Positions 8,301-19,538 of a stretch of 45,937 nt of DNA are shown piece by piece. This DNA comes from Gammaproteobacteria bacterium Ga0074134. GTDB taxonomy: Bacteria > Pseudomonadota > Gammaproteobacteria > Ga0077554 > Ga007554. A program made the translations under genes and the position numbers. The stretch's first letter is position 1. Each line of letters opens with the position of its first letter. The stretch spans positions 1 to 45,937 of the forward strand of contig LNEJ01000050.1 in assembly GCA_001464965.1 (NCBI GenBank), read 5' to 3'. The notes below the pieces were generated by a model, which did no database searches, was not told the origin of the DNA, and worked only from the letters and a program-made list of their open reading frames with translations.

Positions 8301-11300
8301 ATTCGCCCTGCCGCGCCATTTGCGGCGCTGTTGTCGAGGGTGGCGGCGTCGAGCGTGATGTTGCCGTTGGCGACGATGCGCCCGCCGCGATTGTCTATGG
8401 TCTGGCTGGCGCGCAGGCTGCCATTCCCCAGTGTATTGATTGCGCCGCCGTTGTTAAGAATGTTTGCTGCATTGATAGCGACGTTGCCATTGCTGACGAT
8501 CTGGCCCGCCACACCGTCCAGAACACGGTTGTCCAGATCACCGCTGATATCCAAGGTCTGACCGCCGTTGCTGGCGAGATAGCCCGATGGGTTGTATAGT
8601 GCGCCACTCTGGATATGCAATGCACCACCTGCAACGATACCACCGTTGTTGCCGCTGTGAGTGACAGTCAAGTTCTGCCCGTGGGTGTCGATGCGGGTGT
8701 CGCCCACCGACATCAGCAATCCCTGGTCGTTGTTGAGCGCCTGGGTATCGGCGCTGAGCTTGCCTCCGGCAATCACCGTGCCGCCGGTGTTGTCGAGGCT
8801 GCCTGTGACGAGCATTATGTCCGTGCCGCTGATGAGGCCAGTTTGATTCGCGGTATCTCCGGCGACAATCGTGGTGTTACCTGCGGCTTGCAGTTTGCCG
8901 CTTTGGTTGTCTAGCGTCTGACTGTTGCTATTGATGCTCAGATTGCCTTGCAGGCTGGCTACCGTGCCATAGCTATTGGTGAAAGGTGCCGTAGTCAGTG
9001 CGATATCGTCGTTAGCGATGATTCGGCCACCGCTGTTGTCCAGCGACTGGCCTTGGGTGTCGAGGCTCAGGGATGAACCGGAGAGTAGGCTGCCCCACTT
9101 GTTGCGGATCTCGCCGTTCTGAAGGGTGAGGCTCCGGCCGCCACTCAGTTGCCCTATTTCGTTAATGAGTAATCCCGTTCCCAGGGTTACCTGCGTGTCC
9201 TGCTTGGCGTGTATCAATCCCCAATTGTTTTTGAGCGATGTTCCCGTTAAGGAAACCTGGCCATCGCTGATTATCAATCCAGAGTTGTCGATAGCGCCGC
9301 TGCTGTTGATGGTCACCTGGTTGTCAGCCGAAATGACGCCAAAGGAGTTGGTCAGATCGCCAGTGGTAAGGGTGATCGTGTCCTTCGCCGTGATCGTGCC
9401 AGTGCGATTGCCGGTGCCATTGTTCAGGCGTTGGTGCTGTGTGTCGATGGTGAGCACTGCGCCCGATGATATTTCACCTGACTCATTGTCGAAAGCCTTG
9501 CTAACGATCCGGGTGCCGGTAGCCGAGGTTATGATACCCATACGGTTGCTGGCTTGGCCCGCGTTTATCGAGACGGCCCCTTGTGACGAAGCAATGACGG
9601 GCAGGGCAGAGGGGGCGTAGTACACCTCTGGCATGGTGTAGAATTCCTCGGCGTTGTTGGCGAGCTTGCCAGTGGTGAGGGAGATCCCGTCTTTTGCCAG
9701 CACCTTGCCGCCGGTATTGTCAAAGCTCCCCGATTGCAGCGTCAGTGCGCCTGAACTTGTTTGAATCACACCGTTGAGGTTGTCTACGCTGCCCTGCGTG
9801 GCGATGTTCAGGCTATTGGCCGCATCGATTATCCCTTGCTGGTTGACGATCATAGCGGCGTTGATGGAAAGACCTGCATCGGACACCAGCACGCCCTCGG
9901 TGTTGTCGAGCGCATTGCCATGGGTGTGCAGGGCAAGGCCGGTCTTGCCGGAGATTACGCTATTCTGGTTGCTGATAATGCCGGTGGTGGTAATCCGCGT
10001 TGCCTGATTGCTGATGATTTGAGCATAGTCATCGTTGATCAAACTCTCTGCGGCGAGTGTGACGTTGCCGCTACCGAGCAGGCTGCCGCCGCGGTTGTCG
10101 ATGGCGCCCGTGACGGCGGCATCCAGCGCGCCGCCTGCCAGGATCGTACCGCCTTGGTTGGCGATAGACGCACCGCTCAACATCACCGATTGCCCGGCCT
10201 GCCAGAGTCCCGCCGTGTTGCTGATCCGCCCGGCGGCGTGCAGATTGCCTGCGGCATGGAGTTGGGTGTTGAAGGCGGTGAGGTTGCCGGAGGGTGTTGC
10301 ATCAAGGTCGAGATTGCGGTCGGTGATGATTTGCGTGTCGTTGAGATGGATGGCCTGCGCCCGTACGCTCAGATCATCCGCCGCCAGCAGTGTGCCCTGG
10401 TTGGCGGTGAAGCTCGCCGCACGCAGGTCGAGCCGCCCTGCGCTGTAGATCGTGCCGCTGTTGCTGGCGGCCCCCGTCGTGGCGATATCCAGCGTGCCGG
10501 TGCTACGCTGGATGAGTTCTCCGCTGTTGTCAAGCCGCGCTGCGCTGATCGCCAATTGACCTTGCGCATCCACGATGCCTGGCTGGATCACACTGCCACT
10601 GCTGGTGATCCGTGTATTCCCCTTGCTCACTGTCTGCCCAGAAAGCGCCATGGTGCCCGTGCTGGTGAGCTGAATATCTTGTTTCGCGTAGCTGTCTTTG
10701 AGTGTGAGGTCGCCGTTAGCGGAGAGTATCAGGTTGCCCTGCAGGGCGGCCACACGTCCTTGGCTGTTGACACCCAGGCCCTGTTCGGTGGCTACCAGAT
10801 AAACCTGATTGGCATACATGCCGCCCACGTCCTTGATGTCGATGGCAAAGCGGGGCGCCGCTCCATTGCCCGTCAGGGTGGTTGCCTGCAAGGTGGCGTA
10901 CAGCACCTGGTTGGCCCCCGCGATGGCGTTCAGGTTTTTGGCCCAGACCTCGCCTTCTATCACCATGCCGCGTGCAATCAGGTCGAGCTGTTCGAGGCTG
11001 GTGGCCGTCAGTCCCCGGTTGCCGATGGTTAGCTGCCCTTGACGCACATCGAATCCGGTGAGGCTGCCGCCCTCGCCGAAGCGGGGCGTACCGGTGGTGA
11101 GGCTCGCCCGCCCCGTATTGAGAAAACCGCAGCCGTCGCAGGTGATACCGTTGGGATTGGCGATCACGATGTCTGCTCGCCGGCCAGCGATTTCTATTGT
11201 TCCCAGTAACTGCGAAGGGTTGGCTGTTACAATTTCGTTGAGGATGATGCGCGCCGCTGTCGGGCCTATTTGCAGGTTCCCGCCGATCCAGCCACCGAGC

Positions 11301-11738: not shown

Positions 11739-13574
11739 TCAACCAAATACATACGTCACAGACAGATAAGGATTCCAGTTCCCTGTTTTAAATCCGTCCG
11801 GCTTGTAGAGGGGCGCGCCAAGCGCCGCATCGAACTGCACCGCTTTCCATTTGCCGCGCATCCCCAGCGCCGCCCCCGCCAGCCGGTTGCCTATGAGGAA
11901 GGCATCGCTCGCACCCCATACCCGTCCATGGTCGACACCAAGATAAACGGCCGTGTCCACGCCACGTATCCAGTTCACGGGCGTCGCGAGATCATTGCGA
12001 TGGAAGAAGCCGCTTTCCGCCAGCAGCACACTGTCACCATCAAAGCCGCGCACGCTCCACCGCTGGCCGATCGCAATCTGATCTGTCACCAGCGTGGTAT
12101 CGCCGGTACGCTGGCCGCGCAGTGTGGTGGTGTATTGGAAAGGCCTCCCGTTCATCGTAAATGGCTGGTTGTAGGCAGCGGCCAGCGTCCATATCGTGGG
12201 GCGCAGGGTCAGCCCTTCTTGGGCGGCGGTCGGTAAATCATCCTGGGCATCCCTCCAGGACACGCCGCGCCGATAACCGAGATCGACGTCGACGCTGGCG
12301 TTGCCGATCAGTTGTCTTGAGGTGATGCCGGTCTCCACATAAGTTGTACGCCGGCGTTGAACGATCAGCTCCACGTCATCGAGATAGCTGTTGGCACGGC
12401 GTGTGGATACTGCGGCGTATATCCCAAACTTGGCCGATGCCGTGCGAAACGCGGTGTGATGCGCCCTGGCTTCGGTGATTTCGCTCTGGCCGTGGGACAG
12501 AAAGCGGGAGGTGGTGCCTTGCACCATTTGCGCAAACCGGCTGTGGCTCCGGGTGAGCGTGAATGTGCTGTAGCCAAAGGGAATGCTGTAGCTGCCCCCC
12601 AGGCTCTGGCTTCGATGATCGGGATCGGGTTGTTCGACATTGCTGCTGGCGTTGAGGTTGAGAATGTCATTCAGGCCCAGGGGGTTGTCAAATGACGCAT
12701 AGCCGAAGAGTTGTGTGCGGCCGAGTGTTCTGCTGCCCGAGTTGTCGAGGATGACGCCCCCGCGCAACCTGTCGCTTAAGCCACCCGTCTGGCGCACCAG
12801 CGTGACGATGCTGGTGTCGGCGCGCGGCCCTGGCTCTAGCCGGGTAGTGACAGACTGGCTGGGCAGGCGCTTCATTTGTTCGAGACCTTGTTCCATATCA
12901 CGGATATTGAGTATGTCGCCCTTGCTCACTGGAAAGGCGTTCCGCCATGTGCCCCAGGCCTCATCTGCCACCATGCCGCTGTTACTGGTGCGCGGCGTGA
13001 CCATCTTCACAGCGGCGACACGGCCCACATGCAATCGCAACACGAGCTTGCCTTCCTTGAGATTCTGTTCGGGCAGCGAGACGCGGGAGGTGGCGTAGCC
13101 GAATTCGAGCAATTTCGCATTGAGTGCGGCGGCGATCTTGCGCAAGCCTTCGATACCCACGCAGCGCTGCAAAAAAGGTTGCGCGGTATTCGCCAACCAG
13201 GAGAGGGCTTGCGAACCATCGCTGGTCAGGACGATCTCGTTGATGACAAAACAAGGTGTTTCGTCAGGTAGGGCGGTGGAAAGACGCGGCGCGGCTTCGG
13301 GGGTCAAAACGTCAGCCTTGGGCCGCAACTGCTGTTGCTGCAGCCGTTCGCGCTCCTCCTGGCGCCGCAGGCCTTCTTCGGCGGTCTGCGATACGCTGGC
13401 AGGTGCGGGCGCAAGTTCCGCTGGCGCAGCTTGTGACGCGCCAGCGGCAAGCATCAGCAAGATCGCCGCAGCAAGCGGCCATAGGCGGTTGCCTTCCGGC
13501 GACGCATCAAATAGGGGATATCGAACAGTAAAACACCATCCTTGGCGCATAAAAAATGCGGCCATGGGTTTCAT
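11739..13574 (-). CDS. Two-partner secretion outer-membrane transporter (FhaC/ShlB family)
   Basis: This 611-residue protein is predicted to export the FhaB-like protein encoded just downstream. It has a signal sequence (LAAAILLMLAAGASQA) and a periplasmic linker rich in Glu, Arg and Gln (~65-90). A POTRA region (~105-260) includes CFVINEIVLTSD and GYATSRVSLPEQNLKEGKLVL. The beta-barrel carries the conserved SVRGFDGD element (VRG[F/Y] of lid loop L6) and ends in strand-forming PYLSVTYVFG. Length and order match ShlB/FhaC proteins (~550-600). The first Met lies in a long N-terminal extension; a second Met at residue 9 is possible. It is the first gene of the operon, ~120 bp before the exoprotein start. 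Confidence 0.93.
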   Translation of the reverse strand: MKPMAAFFMRQGWCFTVRYPLFDASPEGNRLWPLAAAILLMLAAGASQAAPAELAPAPASVSQTAEEGLRRQEERERLQQQQLRPKADVLTPEAAPRLSTALPDETPCFVINEIVLTSDGSQALSWLANTAQPFLQRCVGIEGLRKIAAALNAKLLEFGYATSRVSLPEQNLKEGKLVLRLHVGRVAAVKMVTPRTSNSGMVADEAWGTWRNAFPVSKGDILNIRDMEQGLEQMKRLPSQSVTTRLEPGPRADTSIVTLVRQTGGLSDRLRGGVILDNSGSRTLGRTQLFGYASFDNPLGLNDILNLNASSNVEQPDPDHRSQSLGGSYSIPFGYSTFTLTRSHSRFAQMVQGTTSRFLSHGQSEITEARAHHTAFRTASAKFGIYAAVSTRRANSYLDDVELIVQRRRTTYVETGITSRQLIGNASVDVDLGYRRGVSWRDAQDDLPTAAQEGLTLRPTIWTLAAAYNQPFTMNGRPFQYTTTLRGQRTGDTTLVTDQIAIGQRWSVRGFDGDSVLLAESGFFHRNDLATPVNWIRGVDTAVYLGVDHGRVWGASDAFLIGNRLAGAALGMRGKWKAVQFDAALGAPLYKPDGFKTGNWNPYLSVTYVFG

Positions 13575-16101: not shown

Positions 16102-16128
16102 CTACGCCAGCAACACTGCCACAATCCC
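16102..16128. repeat. Left copy of a 27-bp direct repeat (3' end of the DUF1614 gene)
   Basis: The sequence CTACGCCAGCAACACTGCCA... matches 18873-18899 at 26 of 27 positions, in the same orientation. At 18873 it is the stop codon and last codons of the DUF1614 gene; here it has no gene attached. The two copies bracket the 2.7-kb protease/peptide locus, as expected for an element inserted at a gene's 3' end or for a segmental recombination event. Confidence 0.85.
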
Positions 16129-16159: not shown

Positions 16160-16354
16160 TTAACAAAGAACCGCGCAGGGATAGCAGTAAACCCGTCCTT
16201 TGATAGCTACGCAGCATACGGCGCTACAGACATTTCTTATAGGCAGTGCTGGTACCACCATTTTATTGCGGAAGTTAGATGTATCTCTCACCTCCTTATA
16301 TGACAAGCTAGGCGTGTGAAGCGAGGCTTCCGCAGTAAACCTTGGCATGTTCAT
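16160..16354 (-). CDS. Candidate RiPP precursor peptide, Cys-rich core
   Basis: This 64-residue peptide starts with a consensus ribosome-binding site (GAGGAGG, 7 nt before ATG 16354). The first 12 residues, MNMPRFTAEASL, match the peptide encoded upstream (MNIPGFTAQNSL); over 19 residues 11 are identical. The tails do not match, as expected for a conserved leader and variable core. The tail is hydrophobic with six Cys at 43, 47, 48, 57, 60 and 64 in a near-mirror pattern (C-x3-CC-x8-C-x2-C-x3-C). It is last in an operon with a PatA/PatG-type protease and a PatG-C protein. Its role as modified or cleaved precursor is inferred from this context. Confidence 0.7.
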   Translation of the reverse strand: MNMPRFTAEASLHTPSLSYKEVRDTSNFRNKMVVPALPIRNVCSAVCCVAIKGRVYCYPCAVLC

Positions 16355-16427
16355 GTCAAACCTCCTCTCGTTTATGATATTAACGGTGATAATGGGACGC
16401 CCTATCTCAACTTGCTGCACCCAGTTG

Positions 16428-16649
16428 CTAGACTTCCTCGCAAACGCTCTGTTGCAAGTCTGTATCTTCATAACAATGCCAGCTTTTGCATCCTTTGCCA
16501 CGGGTACATGTGGTCACCCAGGCCTCATTTTGGCGCATCTGTGGAAAAACCCGATTGCTATTTTCAGATGACATGCCCGAGCTGCTGCCTGAATATTTTG
16601 CGCTGCTCGTTTGTAAGCTGTTTTGTGCGGTAAATCCTGGAATGTTCAT
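16428..16649 (-). CDS. Candidate RiPP precursor peptide with MNIPGFTA leader
   Basis: This 73-residue peptide has an AAGGAGA ribosome-binding site 8 nt before ATG 16649. The leader MNIPGFTAQNSL is shared with the downstream peptide. The rest differs: a Ser-rich middle (AKYSGSSSGMSSENS) and a polar tail with four Cys at 48, 54, 59 and 70. Short proteins beginning MN(I/M)PGFTAEASLY are a recurring unnamed group as far as I recall. The gene begins 27 bp after the PatG-C-like gene stop and is probably in the same transcript. Function as a precursor peptide is inferred. Confidence 0.7.
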   Translation of the reverse strand: MNIPGFTAQNSLQTSSAKYSGSSSGMSSENSNRVFPQMRQNEAWVTTCTRGKGCKSWHCYEDTDLQQSVCEEV

Positions 16650-16676
16650 GTCTAATCTCCTTGTTAATTGCTGAGC

Positions 16677-17573
16677 CTATCGATCATAGTATGGCGACAT
16701 TTTGCTAACCAAAAATGGAAACTCCTCGGTCACATCCACACGTACATAATATTTCTCGGCGACATCGGTCTGCCGGTGGTTGTACGCGAAAATCACATCC
16801 ATTATCTTGCGCGTTCCACTCAGGCGGGATGGACGCACATCCACCCCGGTGAGAGCACAATCCCTTCCGAAGCATTCGGCCGCCGTGGCATAGATGGCCG
16901 GATAACGCATGACCAGATAGTTGAGTGCGCGGTGTTCATCGGTTGCCCCGGCGTTGTCCGCCATCTGCATGACTCGGTCGAACAATTCGCTGGCCATGGG
17001 TTTAAACTTCTCGGCGGTGATTTTGTCCGGCTTGGGAATCGCCTTGATCAGTGTGTTTCGGTCGAAGGAATAGATCTGGTCGAATACAGCCATTGGCACC
17101 ATCAGTCCGTTACACGCATCGGGTGGGGCAATGGGGCCGCGTAGACCGATGACAATATCCAAGTCCATTGGGCTGGGGGCAGGGCGGATAGCCTCTATCA
17201 GAAGGTCTAGATCCCCTGGGTCGCGGGGCTGCAGAATATAGGTTTCCATGCCTTGTATAATGAATACCCAGCACAGTTGCCGCGCGAGGTAGCGGTTTTC
17301 CCGTTGCGATAGCACGGAAAAAAATGCCTCTCGATCTGTTTTTCCGACTGTGTCAGAGCGGCCGGTCGCTTGCATGAATTCTTTTTCGACACTAAGGCGT
17401 GGAAAACGTGGCTCAATGCGCCCCACCGCATAGATGTATGAAAGGGGTGTGTTGGTCACTCCGCTCCCACAGGTTGAGCATGTCCCGTCATTGCTTCCCG
17501 GTGGCGCCATCATTACGGATTTATTGTCAGGAAATGCAGTAGCCGGTAGTTGTATCGCTTCATTTTGTTCCAT
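16677..17573 (-). CDS. PatG C-terminal-domain protein (stand-alone, no protease domain)
   Basis: This 298-residue protein resembles the C-terminal region of cyanobactin maturation proteases such as PatG. Recognised blocks are YIYAVGRIEPRFPRLSVEKE, RENRYLARQLCWV, ETYILQPRDP, GPIAPPDACNGLMVP, MQMADNAGATDEHRALNYL, RPSRLSGTRKI and the end RVDVTEEFPFLVSKMSPYYDR. In PatG this region follows the subtilisin domain and has no firmly assigned activity; here it is a separate gene. The N-terminus has a CSTCGSG motif, possibly metal-binding. The ribosome-binding site is GGGGGAAG before ATG 17573. It lies between the CxxC mini-protein and the peptide genes, so it is likely part of the peptide-processing machinery. 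Confidence 0.85.
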   Translation of the reverse strand: MEQNEAIQLPATAFPDNKSVMMAPPGSNDGTCSTCGSGVTNTPLSYIYAVGRIEPRFPRLSVEKEFMQATGRSDTVGKTDREAFFSVLSQRENRYLARQLCWVFIIQGMETYILQPRDPGDLDLLIEAIRPAPSPMDLDIVIGLRGPIAPPDACNGLMVPMAVFDQIYSFDRNTLIKAIPKPDKITAEKFKPMASELFDRVMQMADNAGATDEHRALNYLVMRYPAIYATAAECFGRDCALTGVDVRPSRLSGTRKIMDVIFAYNHRQTDVAEKYYVRVDVTEEFPFLVSKMSPYYDR

Positions 17574-17622
17574 AACACTTCCCCCTGAAAATAGAGATGG
17601 ATCGTTGTGGCTTGAGTCCTAC

Positions 17623-17823
17623 TTACTTTGAGTGATATCCTGTAAAAGTCATCCAGCGGTTGAGGATGGCGGCGCGCCGTTGACAACCATCACAGGGTTT
17701 AATGCCAATAGCGTATGTCATGTGCTTGATGACATCTCCCAAGCCGATGTCTTCCTCTATTAGGAATCCAGGAAGACGTATCCGGTGGGGTTGGTGTCCC
17801 ATCTTTTTGCTGTCATCATTCAT
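17623..17823 (-). CDS. Conserved 66-residue CxxC-type protein of PatA/PatG-like loci
   Basis: This small protein has the core LPGFLIEEDIGLGDVIKHMT and the motif KPCDGCQRRAAILNRW. I recognise the pattern (IGLGDVIK...GI+PCxGCxxRAAxLNRW) as a recurrent small protein, but know no function. The CDGC pair could bind metal or form a disulfide. It has a strong AAGGAG site, starts 20 bp after the protease stop and is followed 49 bp later by the PatG-C-like gene, so it is a co-expressed member of the locus. Peptide binding or recognition is one possibility. Confidence 0.75.
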   Translation of the reverse strand: MNDDSKKMGHQPHRIRLPGFLIEEDIGLGDVIKHMTYAIGIKPCDGCQRRAAILNRWMTFTGYHSK

Positions 17824-17843
17824 TGATTTCTCCTTGTTTTACG

Positions 17844-18716
17844 TTATTGTCGCGCATGATTTCTCGCTACCGTTTGATATGCTGCCCAAGCATCCATCAT
17901 AGGCGGTACAACGCTGTTTCGTCGTGGAGAATCGCCGTGGGTGATAGCCAGTTTTATCTCCCCCGCAGTTGCAGTAGGAAACAACGACCACAGCAACGCA
18001 GTCGCGCCCGTTACAAAGGGGGTCGCAACACTTGTTCCTCCTTGTGTGAGCGTTTTACCATTGGCGCTGAGACTGGTGATTCCTTCGCCGGGCGCGCTCA
18101 ACCCCTGTTTTCCGATAGAGCTTCCCAGATTTGAGTCATTTATCGGTCTTCCCGAAAGGTCGCAGGCCGCTACAGGGATGACCCATGGATGCCGGGTTAT
18201 GGCAGAGCTGCCAAGGGTGCCTTGATTCCCTGCCGCTGCGACGACGATGACACCGCGCATTGCGGCATATGCCAGTGCATCCTCCAGTTTGCGCTCACCA
18301 TTTGGCGAGGGTTGCGCGAGGGAGGCGCTAAGGTTGATCAATCTCGCGCCAGCATCAATACACTCGATGAGCGCTGCAGCGAGTTCTTGGGGAGTCGTGC
18401 TCGGTATTTCTCCATTTACCGAGGCCGACTCTGCGAAGATGGGGCGCACCAGCAAGGTGCAGTTGGGGCAGATTGCCGGAGCGGCGGTATTCCTTTTTGC
18501 GAACAATATGCCAGCCACAAAGGTGCCATGAAAGCAGGCGAAGTTATTAGTTTGAGTGCACGTGCCGCGAAACGCGCTTGTCACACGGATATTTGCATTG
18601 GCAAGATCAGGATGATGCGTGGCGACGGGGCCGTCTATCAGGCCGATTATGATTTCAGGTCTGCCACTGCTGAGGGCCTTCAGCGCTTTCAGTTTTACCA
18701 GTTCCAGAGGATCCAT
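17844..18716 (-). CDS. PatA/PatG-type subtilisin-like serine protease
   Basis: This 290-residue S8 protease has all catalytic residues: Asp28 in GLIDGPV, His63 in FHGTFVAGIL, Ser229 in GGTSVATPFVTG, and oxyanion Asn164 in AAAGNQGT. The CPNCTLLVRPIF segment after the His motif and the short N-terminus without signal peptide or propeptide are typical of cytoplasmic cyanobactin-type maturation proteases rather than secreted subtilisins. In cyanobactin pathways PatA removes the leader and PatG cleaves and cyclises the core. Here the protease domain stands alone and the PatG-C domain is encoded separately. ATG 18716 has an AAGGA site. It is the first gene of the locus; an FNR-type site lies ~100 bp upstream. 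Confidence 0.9.
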   Translation of the reverse strand: MDPLELVKLKALKALSSGRPEIIIGLIDGPVATHHPDLANANIRVTSAFRGTCTQTNNFACFHGTFVAGILFAKRNTAAPAICPNCTLLVRPIFAESASVNGEIPSTTPQELAAALIECIDAGARLINLSASLAQPSPNGERKLEDALAYAAMRGVIVVAAAGNQGTLGSSAITRHPWVIPVAACDLSGRPINDSNLGSSIGKQGLSAPGEGITSLSANGKTLTQGGTSVATPFVTGATALLWSLFPTATAGEIKLAITHGDSPRRNSVVPPMMDAWAAYQTVARNHARQ

Positions 18717-18872: not shown

Positions 18873-18899
18873 CTACGCCAGCAACACTGCCACGATCCC
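18873..18899. repeat. Right copy of the 27-bp direct repeat (inside the DUF1614 3' end)
   Basis: It starts exactly at the stop codon of the DUF1614 gene and covers its last nine codons; the partner is 16102-16128 (26/27 identical). This copy keeps the gene intact, as in elements that insert at a gene's 3' end and restore it. Confidence 0.85.
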
Positions 18900-19538
18900 C
18901 GTAATAAAAATCCCGTCAAATGTTCCCGCGCCGCCGATGGAGGCGATGGGTGTGCCCATTTTGCGGATGTCTTTCAGGCGCAGCAGGTCGGCGCCGATCA
19001 ATACGCCGAGGGTGCCGCATATATAGGCGAGCGCCGCGCTATGTTCTGGGGCGATGATGATGGCGGTGAGTGCGGCGGTAACGGGGCCGACGAAGATCGG
19101 CATGCCTATTCCTAGGCCGGGGATGGGGCGGCTGGTCAGGTGACTGACGGTGGCGACGATGGTGATGGCAAGCGCCATCTGTGTCAGGTCGATGGGATTG
19201 TGACGCATCAGGTAATAGGAAAAGAGCAGGGGGATCAGGCAGCCGCCGACATTGACGGCGATCACCGTTTTGCCGGTGAATTCGCGCATCTGTGGACGCA
19301 GCAGGCGGCGCAGCGCGTCAGGAATGGCCATGTCCGGCGACGGGCGTTCGGCCTTGATCTGAAACAGCGGCAGGTTGATGGCGCTGCCGAACAACGAGGC
19401 GAATAGCAGTGTGAAGGCCGAGGAGGGTGACAGACCCAGCTTTTCAACGGCGACCGTTAGCAATCCGATCTGCACGAAGGCAAGAAGCATGCTTATCAGC
19501 AGGACGAACAGGATTAGATATAAGGGTGAAAAGGGCAC
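18873..19538 (-). CDS. DUF1614 integral membrane protein
   Basis: This 221-residue, very hydrophobic protein has about six or seven membrane segments, starting at YLILFVLLISMLLAFVQIGLL. Conserved-looking loops include GSAINLPLF, HLTSRPIPGLGIGMPIFVGP and the C-terminal ASIGGAGTFDGIFITGI. I recognise it as the DUF1614 family, of unknown function, often near nucleotide-salvage phosphorylase genes. It starts 6 bp after the PRPP synthetase stop, so the two are cotranscribed. Its 3' end is duplicated 2.77 kb away next to the SDR gene. Confidence 0.85.
   Translation of the reverse strand: MPFSPLYLILFVLLISMLLAFVQIGLLTVAVEKLGLSPSSAFTLLFASLFGSAINLPLFQIKAERPSPDMAIPDALRRLLRPQMREFTGKTVIAVNVGGCLIPLLFSYYLMRHNPIDLTQMALAITIVATVSHLTSRPIPGLGIGMPIFVGPVTAALTAIIIAPEHSAALAYICGTLGVLIGADLLRLKDIRKMGTPIASIGGAGTFDGIFITGIVAVLLA

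Follow-up and report, generated by a model that had tools for sequence, protein, structure and literature searches.

What does a compact set of PatA/PatG-derived genes do in a gammaproteobacterium that has no YcaO cyclodehydratase? The question is raised by an operon in a stretch of 45,937 nucleotides of contig LNEJ01000050.1 (Gammaproteobacteria bacterium Ga0074134), referred to here as the window. The operon consists of five open reading frames on the minus strand, present and arranged as in the preliminary description of this DNA: a PatA-like S8 serine protease of 290 amino acids (17844..18716), a CxxC protein of 66 amino acids (17623..17823), a stand-alone PatG_D plus PatG_C protein of 298 amino acids (16677..17573, PatG-DUF, below called the DUF protein), and the precursor peptides 1 (73 amino acids, 16428..16649) and 2 (64 amino acids, 16160..16354). 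The gaps between them measure 20, 49, 27 and 73 bp, and both peptide genes are preceded by AGGAG-type ribosome sites (AAGGAGA and GAGAGGAGG, respectively, before the ATG). A profile search that included positive controls gave 0 matches to YcaO (PF02624) in the whole genome of the window, which extends to the genome an absence already noted for the locus; the genome encodes a single PatG_C. No component has a signal-peptide-like N-terminus in a simple hydropathy scan, and Rfam had no match in the part of the window at 15-20 kb, thus no RNA element is found there.

The catalytic residues D28/H63/S229 of the S8 protein are intact (PF00082, E 6.6e-27), as previously claimed, with the refinement that the enzyme resembles PatA far more than the PatG macrocyclase. 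Its best matches in the PDB are the PatA structures 4h6v and 3zxx (E ~6e-34), whereas the PatG macrocyclase (4aks, 4h6x) matches with an E of 2e-13, in an alignment that begins only at His63. The protein carries no fused DUF, and its score against TIGR03895, 118 bits, lies under the family cut-off of 421. Membership in the PatA/PatG superfamily could suggest that the protease performs head-to-tail macrocyclisation as in the patellamides, but the Asp-His distance of 35 is that of PatA-like enzymes and of ordinary subtilases, and the alignment of PatG from the histidine on is consistent with the absence of the extra segment, i.e. spacing and PDB alignment both indicate that the window protease does not have the PatG-type insertion between Asp and His. 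Moreover, the precursor alignment revealed no conserved C-terminal recognition sequence common to the peptides. With its catalytic residues spaced as in PatA and the macrocyclase insertion of PatG missing, the enzyme is unlikely to cyclise; PatG-type macrocyclisation was rejected because of the spacing and of the alignment from His63 only, and we regard a head-to-tail macrocyclase role of the S8 protein as highly improbable. Of the processed or cyclised peptide envisaged in the preliminary description, the cyclised form is therefore not supported.

The third protein of the operon matches PF18047 (E 2.9e-33) and PF18065 (E 1.4e-33) in Pfam, its profile matches 4uvq with an E of 2.7e-6, and its score against TIGR03895 is 14.8 bits. 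The mean pLDDT of its AlphaFold model is 72, and the sole significant PDB match of the model is 4uvq (Foldseek E 1.7e-11, TM 0.59/0.66). These family matches and the 4uvq fold confirm the free-standing PatG C-terminal-domain protein proposed earlier, and the 66-residue CxxC protein proposed with it is also borne out. The structure of the corresponding C-terminal domain of PatG/PatA, published in 2014, revealed a fold that was new; no ligand was detected and no function was assigned (PMC4259220). The domain is common in cyanobactin proteases and lacks an assigned activity, and the only cofactor seen bound to it is Zn, at a poorly conserved site (PMC4259220); the PatG DUF did not bind PatE, plain or heterocyclised (Mann et al. 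2014, PMC4259220). In the window the DUF has a gene of its own, within a minimal set made up of a protease, a CxxC protein and leader peptides, therefore its role can be cleanly tested here.

The two peptides are not chance open reading frames, since three further genomes of the genus keep them, and comparisons with the window give a dN/dS of about 0.2-0.3, which indicates purifying selection; their first 20 codons show 0-1 non-synonymous changes relative to these relatives. Together with the leader motif, this conservation bears out the common leader noticed earlier. Among 21 precursors a first motif, PGFTAExSLY..S..Y, is common to all and stands right after the start codon. In an alignment of 18 precursors it corresponds to PGFTAQNSLQTSSAKY in peptide 1 (16593..16640, minus strand) and to PRFTAEASLHTPSLSY in peptide 2 (16298..16345, minus strand). 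A second motif, [VI]xP[AQ], follows in most precursors 28-33 residues past the first; it was found in 19 of the 21 (expected 1.7, maximum 7 in 5000 shuffles) and is missing in two precursors from Streptomyces plasmids (L032, L033). In the window this motif reads VFPQ in peptide 1 (16539..16550, minus strand), where we propose the cleavage region, and VVPA in peptide 2 (16247..16258, minus strand). Between loci the leaders are 42% identical and the remainder 7%, and Cys makes up 0.8% of the leaders versus 11.8% of the cores. The cores are hypervariable and mostly Cys-rich (4 Cys in peptide 1, 6 Cys in peptide 2), with both peptides of G007, a genome of the same family, and one peptide of G034 as Cys-poor exceptions. 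The cyanobactin leader LPxQxxPVxR and core recognition sequences are absent from the window peptides, which have no match in NCBIfam or Pfam. In the broad sense these are precursors of the RiPP type, i.e. short peptides with a conserved leader, a variable core and processing genes nearby, and by gene anatomy the locus can be described as a RiPP-like system.

Decayed or intact 3' ends of DUF genes adjoin precursors at several places (L020:3-182 and about 1410-1470; L015:12568-12708; L044:7285-7392). Because such fragments accompany the precursors, it is suggested that precursor genes were copied along with the end of the neighbouring DUF gene. In one of the genus genomes (G001) a transposase-like ORF (L015:11081-12511) separates the first precursor from a differing third one (12727-12933), and in another (G002) the third precursor is a truncated relic (L016:10478-10553). 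A plasmid of Streptomyces xanthophaeus contains a precursor-like ORF with 14 Cys (L033:8786-9103, MPTTQRIPGFRSDL...), whose annotation starts internally, at 8963.

The CxxC protein keeps the same position across loci and has the family consensus HRVRLPGFxxDEEIGLGD...GIxPCGGCxRRAAxLNRWxxFTGR. It has no match in Pfam, NCBIfam or the PDB, and its structural model (pLDDT 63) is of low confidence, too weak for a fold search. Its conserved segment RLPGFxx[ED]E[ED]IGLGD, represented in the window by the leader-like LPGFLIEEDI (17746..17775, minus strand), resembles the first leader motif. The pattern [LIMT]PGF..[ED] occurred within the first 40 amino acids of 17 of the 600 ORFs of nine loci, and all 17 were CxxC proteins or precursors; the chance of the motif per CxxC protein is 0.0003-0.0006 as estimated by shuffling. 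Because both carry the PGFxx[ED] motif, the CxxC protein probably docks where the leader docks. That it and the precursors would bind one common partner is the simplest reading of these sequences, a reading formed after the data were seen.

It is conceivable that the DUF protein, the CxxC protein or both are modifying enzymes that introduce e.g. thioethers, defined disulfides or some other change of the Cys residues, with the protease removing only the leader afterwards. The cores are indeed Cys-rich, the CxxC protein is invariably there and carries the leader motif, and a bipartite leader exceeds the need of a lone protease. The PatG-DUF of cyanobactins, however, has neither an assigned activity nor a bound cofactor apart from the poorly conserved Zn site (PMC4259220), and the CxxC protein, at 66 amino acids, matches no enzyme family; a modifying role thus seems rather unlikely to us.

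How widely is the gene set shared? Relatives of the DUF protein were gathered from genomes, genome contigs and plasmids, the scan of genome contigs reaching close relatives only because it used a single protein query and not a profile. Three further genomes of the genus (L015-L017) have the full module, as do an Ectothiorhodospiraceae MAG (L023), two Acidobacteriota loci (L024, L044), and plasmids of Sinorhizobium mexicanum (L030), Mesorhizobium (L031) and Streptomyces (L032). G007 also has it, with the S8 gene read in two frames, whereas on a second Streptomyces plasmid (L033) only the S8 gene is missing within the stretch read, and the G034 locus (L020) is a contig fragment beginning inside the DUF gene. 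In every independent split locus S8 comes first, followed by the CxxC protein, the DUF protein and one to four peptides, mostly co-directional, the clearest peptide of L023 being divergent; wherever an independent locus was examined, leader peptides adjoined the stand-alone DUF. The preliminary description had named the absence of such peptides near similar proteases elsewhere as a reason to drop its reading; instead, the leader turned up again in alpha- and gammaproteobacteria, Acidobacteriota and Streptomyces. The flanks of the module are unrelated across Gammaproteobacteria, Rhizobiales plasmids, Acidobacteriota and Streptomyces plasmids. An all-against-all comparison found no further gene common to loci beyond the genus, the residual SDR and ABC-type matches belonging to generic families, and no transporter or immunity gene is conserved among the loci.

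The system is rare and patchy. PatG_C was found in 5 of 369 sampled genomes of the class, one of the five being of the fused type discussed below; the stand-alone DUF in 2 of 247 sampled Acidobacteriota genomes, one of them the source of L024 itself; and no DUF match came from 337 sampled genomes of the alphaproteobacterial class. Among 72,556 plasmids the CxxC protein was found in 4 only, exactly the four with a stand-alone DUF. The leader pattern, searched in 398 genomes of the phylum as a single exact pattern, which is too narrow, was found in the window's own genome only. Two adjacent proteins of Photobacterium sp. GJ3 (L034:7584-8672 and 8669-9337) are distantly related to the PatG DUF; no S8 gene was recognised nearby, and an 857-amino-acid ORF follows the pair.

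The operon is flanked by an SDR gene and, upstream, by a gene for 221 amino acids (18873-19538), whose last 27 nucleotides (18873..18899, minus strand) are repeated with 96% identity past the operon, at the cassette end before the SDR gene (16102..16128, minus strand), and the three other genomes of the genus have similar repeats around the operon. In G005, which belongs to another genus of the same family, the orthologous flanking genes are about a dozen bases apart and there is no operon between them (empty site in L059 near 2055-2069). The direct repeats and this empty site identify the operon as a cassette inserted at the 3' end of the 221-amino-acid gene; the cassette contains no integrase, and its GC content is 52%, compared to 57-62% in the flanks. 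In the tree the split type is separated from the fused type with support 1.0. Within the split clade Mesorhizobium groups with the gammaproteobacterial G007 (support 0.97) and, weakly supported, Sinorhizobium with the Acidobacteriota genome G1072. This mixing of phyla and classes points to horizontal transfer of the split module. The cassette insertion, like the leader-like motif of the CxxC protein, motif 2 and the mostly Cys-rich cores, had escaped the preliminary description.

A phage origin was considered and rejected, the DUF protein having no match in viral contigs or phage records and the leader pattern none in viral contigs. A defence system was also rejected, PADLOC giving generic S8 matches only. 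The mobile cassette behaviour and the weak PADLOC subtilase matches could nevertheless be taken to mean that the peptides are regulators or inhibitors of the protease, which would turn the operon into a self-regulated protease or into a toxin-antidote or defence-like module; a trans inhibitor would make sense because the S8 protein has no pro-domain. Tails that are hypervariable and Cys-rich, the presence of several different peptides in one operon and the duplication of precursor units are, however, typical of products and not what inhibitors of a single conserved protease would show, and the PADLOC matches are generic to the S8 fold. We consider the inhibitor explanation distinctly unlikely.

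Distantly related fused proteins of about 650-800 amino acids combining S8 and DUF occur in Rhizobiaceae (L045-L050) and in the gammaproteobacterial genome G038 (L019), and the two that were scanned (L019, L050) exceed the TIGR03895 cut-off. In the fused loci read closely they are followed by 2-4 Cys-rich peptides with the cyanobactin leader LPxQxxPVxR (e.g. MKLPTQSKPVARG...DCCGAGRCCVGACLPFGGGCAGICVPNIGQC), which match TIGR03678 weakly. No YcaO was noticed nearby, as judged from a reading of these stretches. A Mesorhizobium peptide beside a split enzyme has both kinds of leader (MNIPGFAAEAAL...RFPIQAGPI); this unannotated, Cys-rich peptide, with IPGFAAEAAL and RFPIQAGPI, is encoded on plasmid pB2-1-1 (L031:9280-9585, plus strand). 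The rhizobial fused loci, with cyanobactin leaders and no YcaO noticed nearby, hint that the system may at its core be proteolysis with the DUF, heterocyclisation being an addition made in cyanobacteria.

We think it fairly probable that the operon was acquired horizontally and is related to the cyanobactin maturation systems, with split genes and no YcaO, and that it processes families of mostly Cys-rich peptides as follows. The precursors would be synthesised in the cytoplasm, each with a bipartite leader composed of motif 1 (PxFTAExSLY) and motif 2 ([VI]xP[AQ]). The stand-alone PatG-DUF, judged by its co-occurrence with two kinds of leader, would serve as a docking or scaffold subunit. A role as leader receptor is weakened by the failure of the PatG DUF to bind PatE (PMC4259220), and it may be the CxxC protein that supplies the contact missing from that experiment. 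The CxxC protein, probably docked at the site of the leader, would either act on the Cys-rich cores as their thiol/disulfide partner or regulate docking. The PatA-like protease would finally cut at or just past motif 2 and free the core; by analogy with PatA, leader removal by this enzyme appears to be the best-supported step. The sequences themselves establish the parts and their joint conservation, the bipartite leader, the motif common to leader and CxxC protein, the lack of YcaO, the PatA-type catalytic spacing and the history of insertion, whereas the leader-binding partner, the cleavage site, the CxxC role, the cysteine state of the cores and their biological activity are the inferred part of this model. 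A more far-reaching proposal, which we put forward tentatively and with some doubt, is a new RiPP class with a split PatA-type protease, a free-standing PatG-DUF and a leader-mimicking CxxC protein, in which the DUF-CxxC pair would dock the precursors via PGFxxE and set the thiol chemistry of the core before cleavage. If this were true, the PatG-DUF of cyanobactins would, by extension, be a precursor-docking scaffold.

It is instructive to compare the module with known systems. Searches of open-access full text with the leader string, the family accessions and PatG/RiPP terms found no earlier description of this gene set, which looks like an apparently undescribed kind of peptide-processing system; the bipartite leader can serve as a search key for apparently undescribed Cys-rich peptides in at least three phyla. 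The original idea of a RiPP-like locus of PatA/PatG-derived parts, likely of a new type, is supported.

QhpE is a cytoplasmic S8 protease that takes the leader off a Cys-containing peptide. Against its family (NF049966) the window protease scores 50 bits, compared to a cut-off of 165 bits, and the radical SAM and amine-dehydrogenase genes of the QhpE system do not belong to the conserved module. The fused PatA/PatG-type loci resemble the module in having S8 and DUF beside several Cys-rich peptides, but differ in the fusion, in scores above the TIGR03895 cut-off and in the cyanobactin-type leader, and no CxxC protein was found in them. With the patellamide PatG-DUF (4uvq) the window protein shares the fold, although it is free-standing and ~18% identical over the structural alignment; proteins of the window type add a low-confidence N-terminal segment, with a CxxC in most members.

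The closest parallel is with the cyanobactin enzymes PatA and PatG (TIGR03895; 4h6v, 3zxx, 4aks, 4h6x), with which the module has in common the PatA-type S8 protease, PatG_D/PatG_C and multiple short leader precursors. The DUF features of cyanobactin proteases (PF18047, PF18065, 4uvq fold) are all present, though in a separate protein; protease and DUF are separate genes and there is no macrocyclase insertion. A YcaO heterocyclase occurs in many, not all, cyanobactin pathways. In comparison with these pathways the module is without YcaO, oxidase and prenyltransferase, and has another leader, an extra CxxC protein and long, mostly Cys-rich cores. By the features tested, i.e. family cut-off, YcaO, macrocyclase insertion and leader, it is not a cyanobactin pathway.
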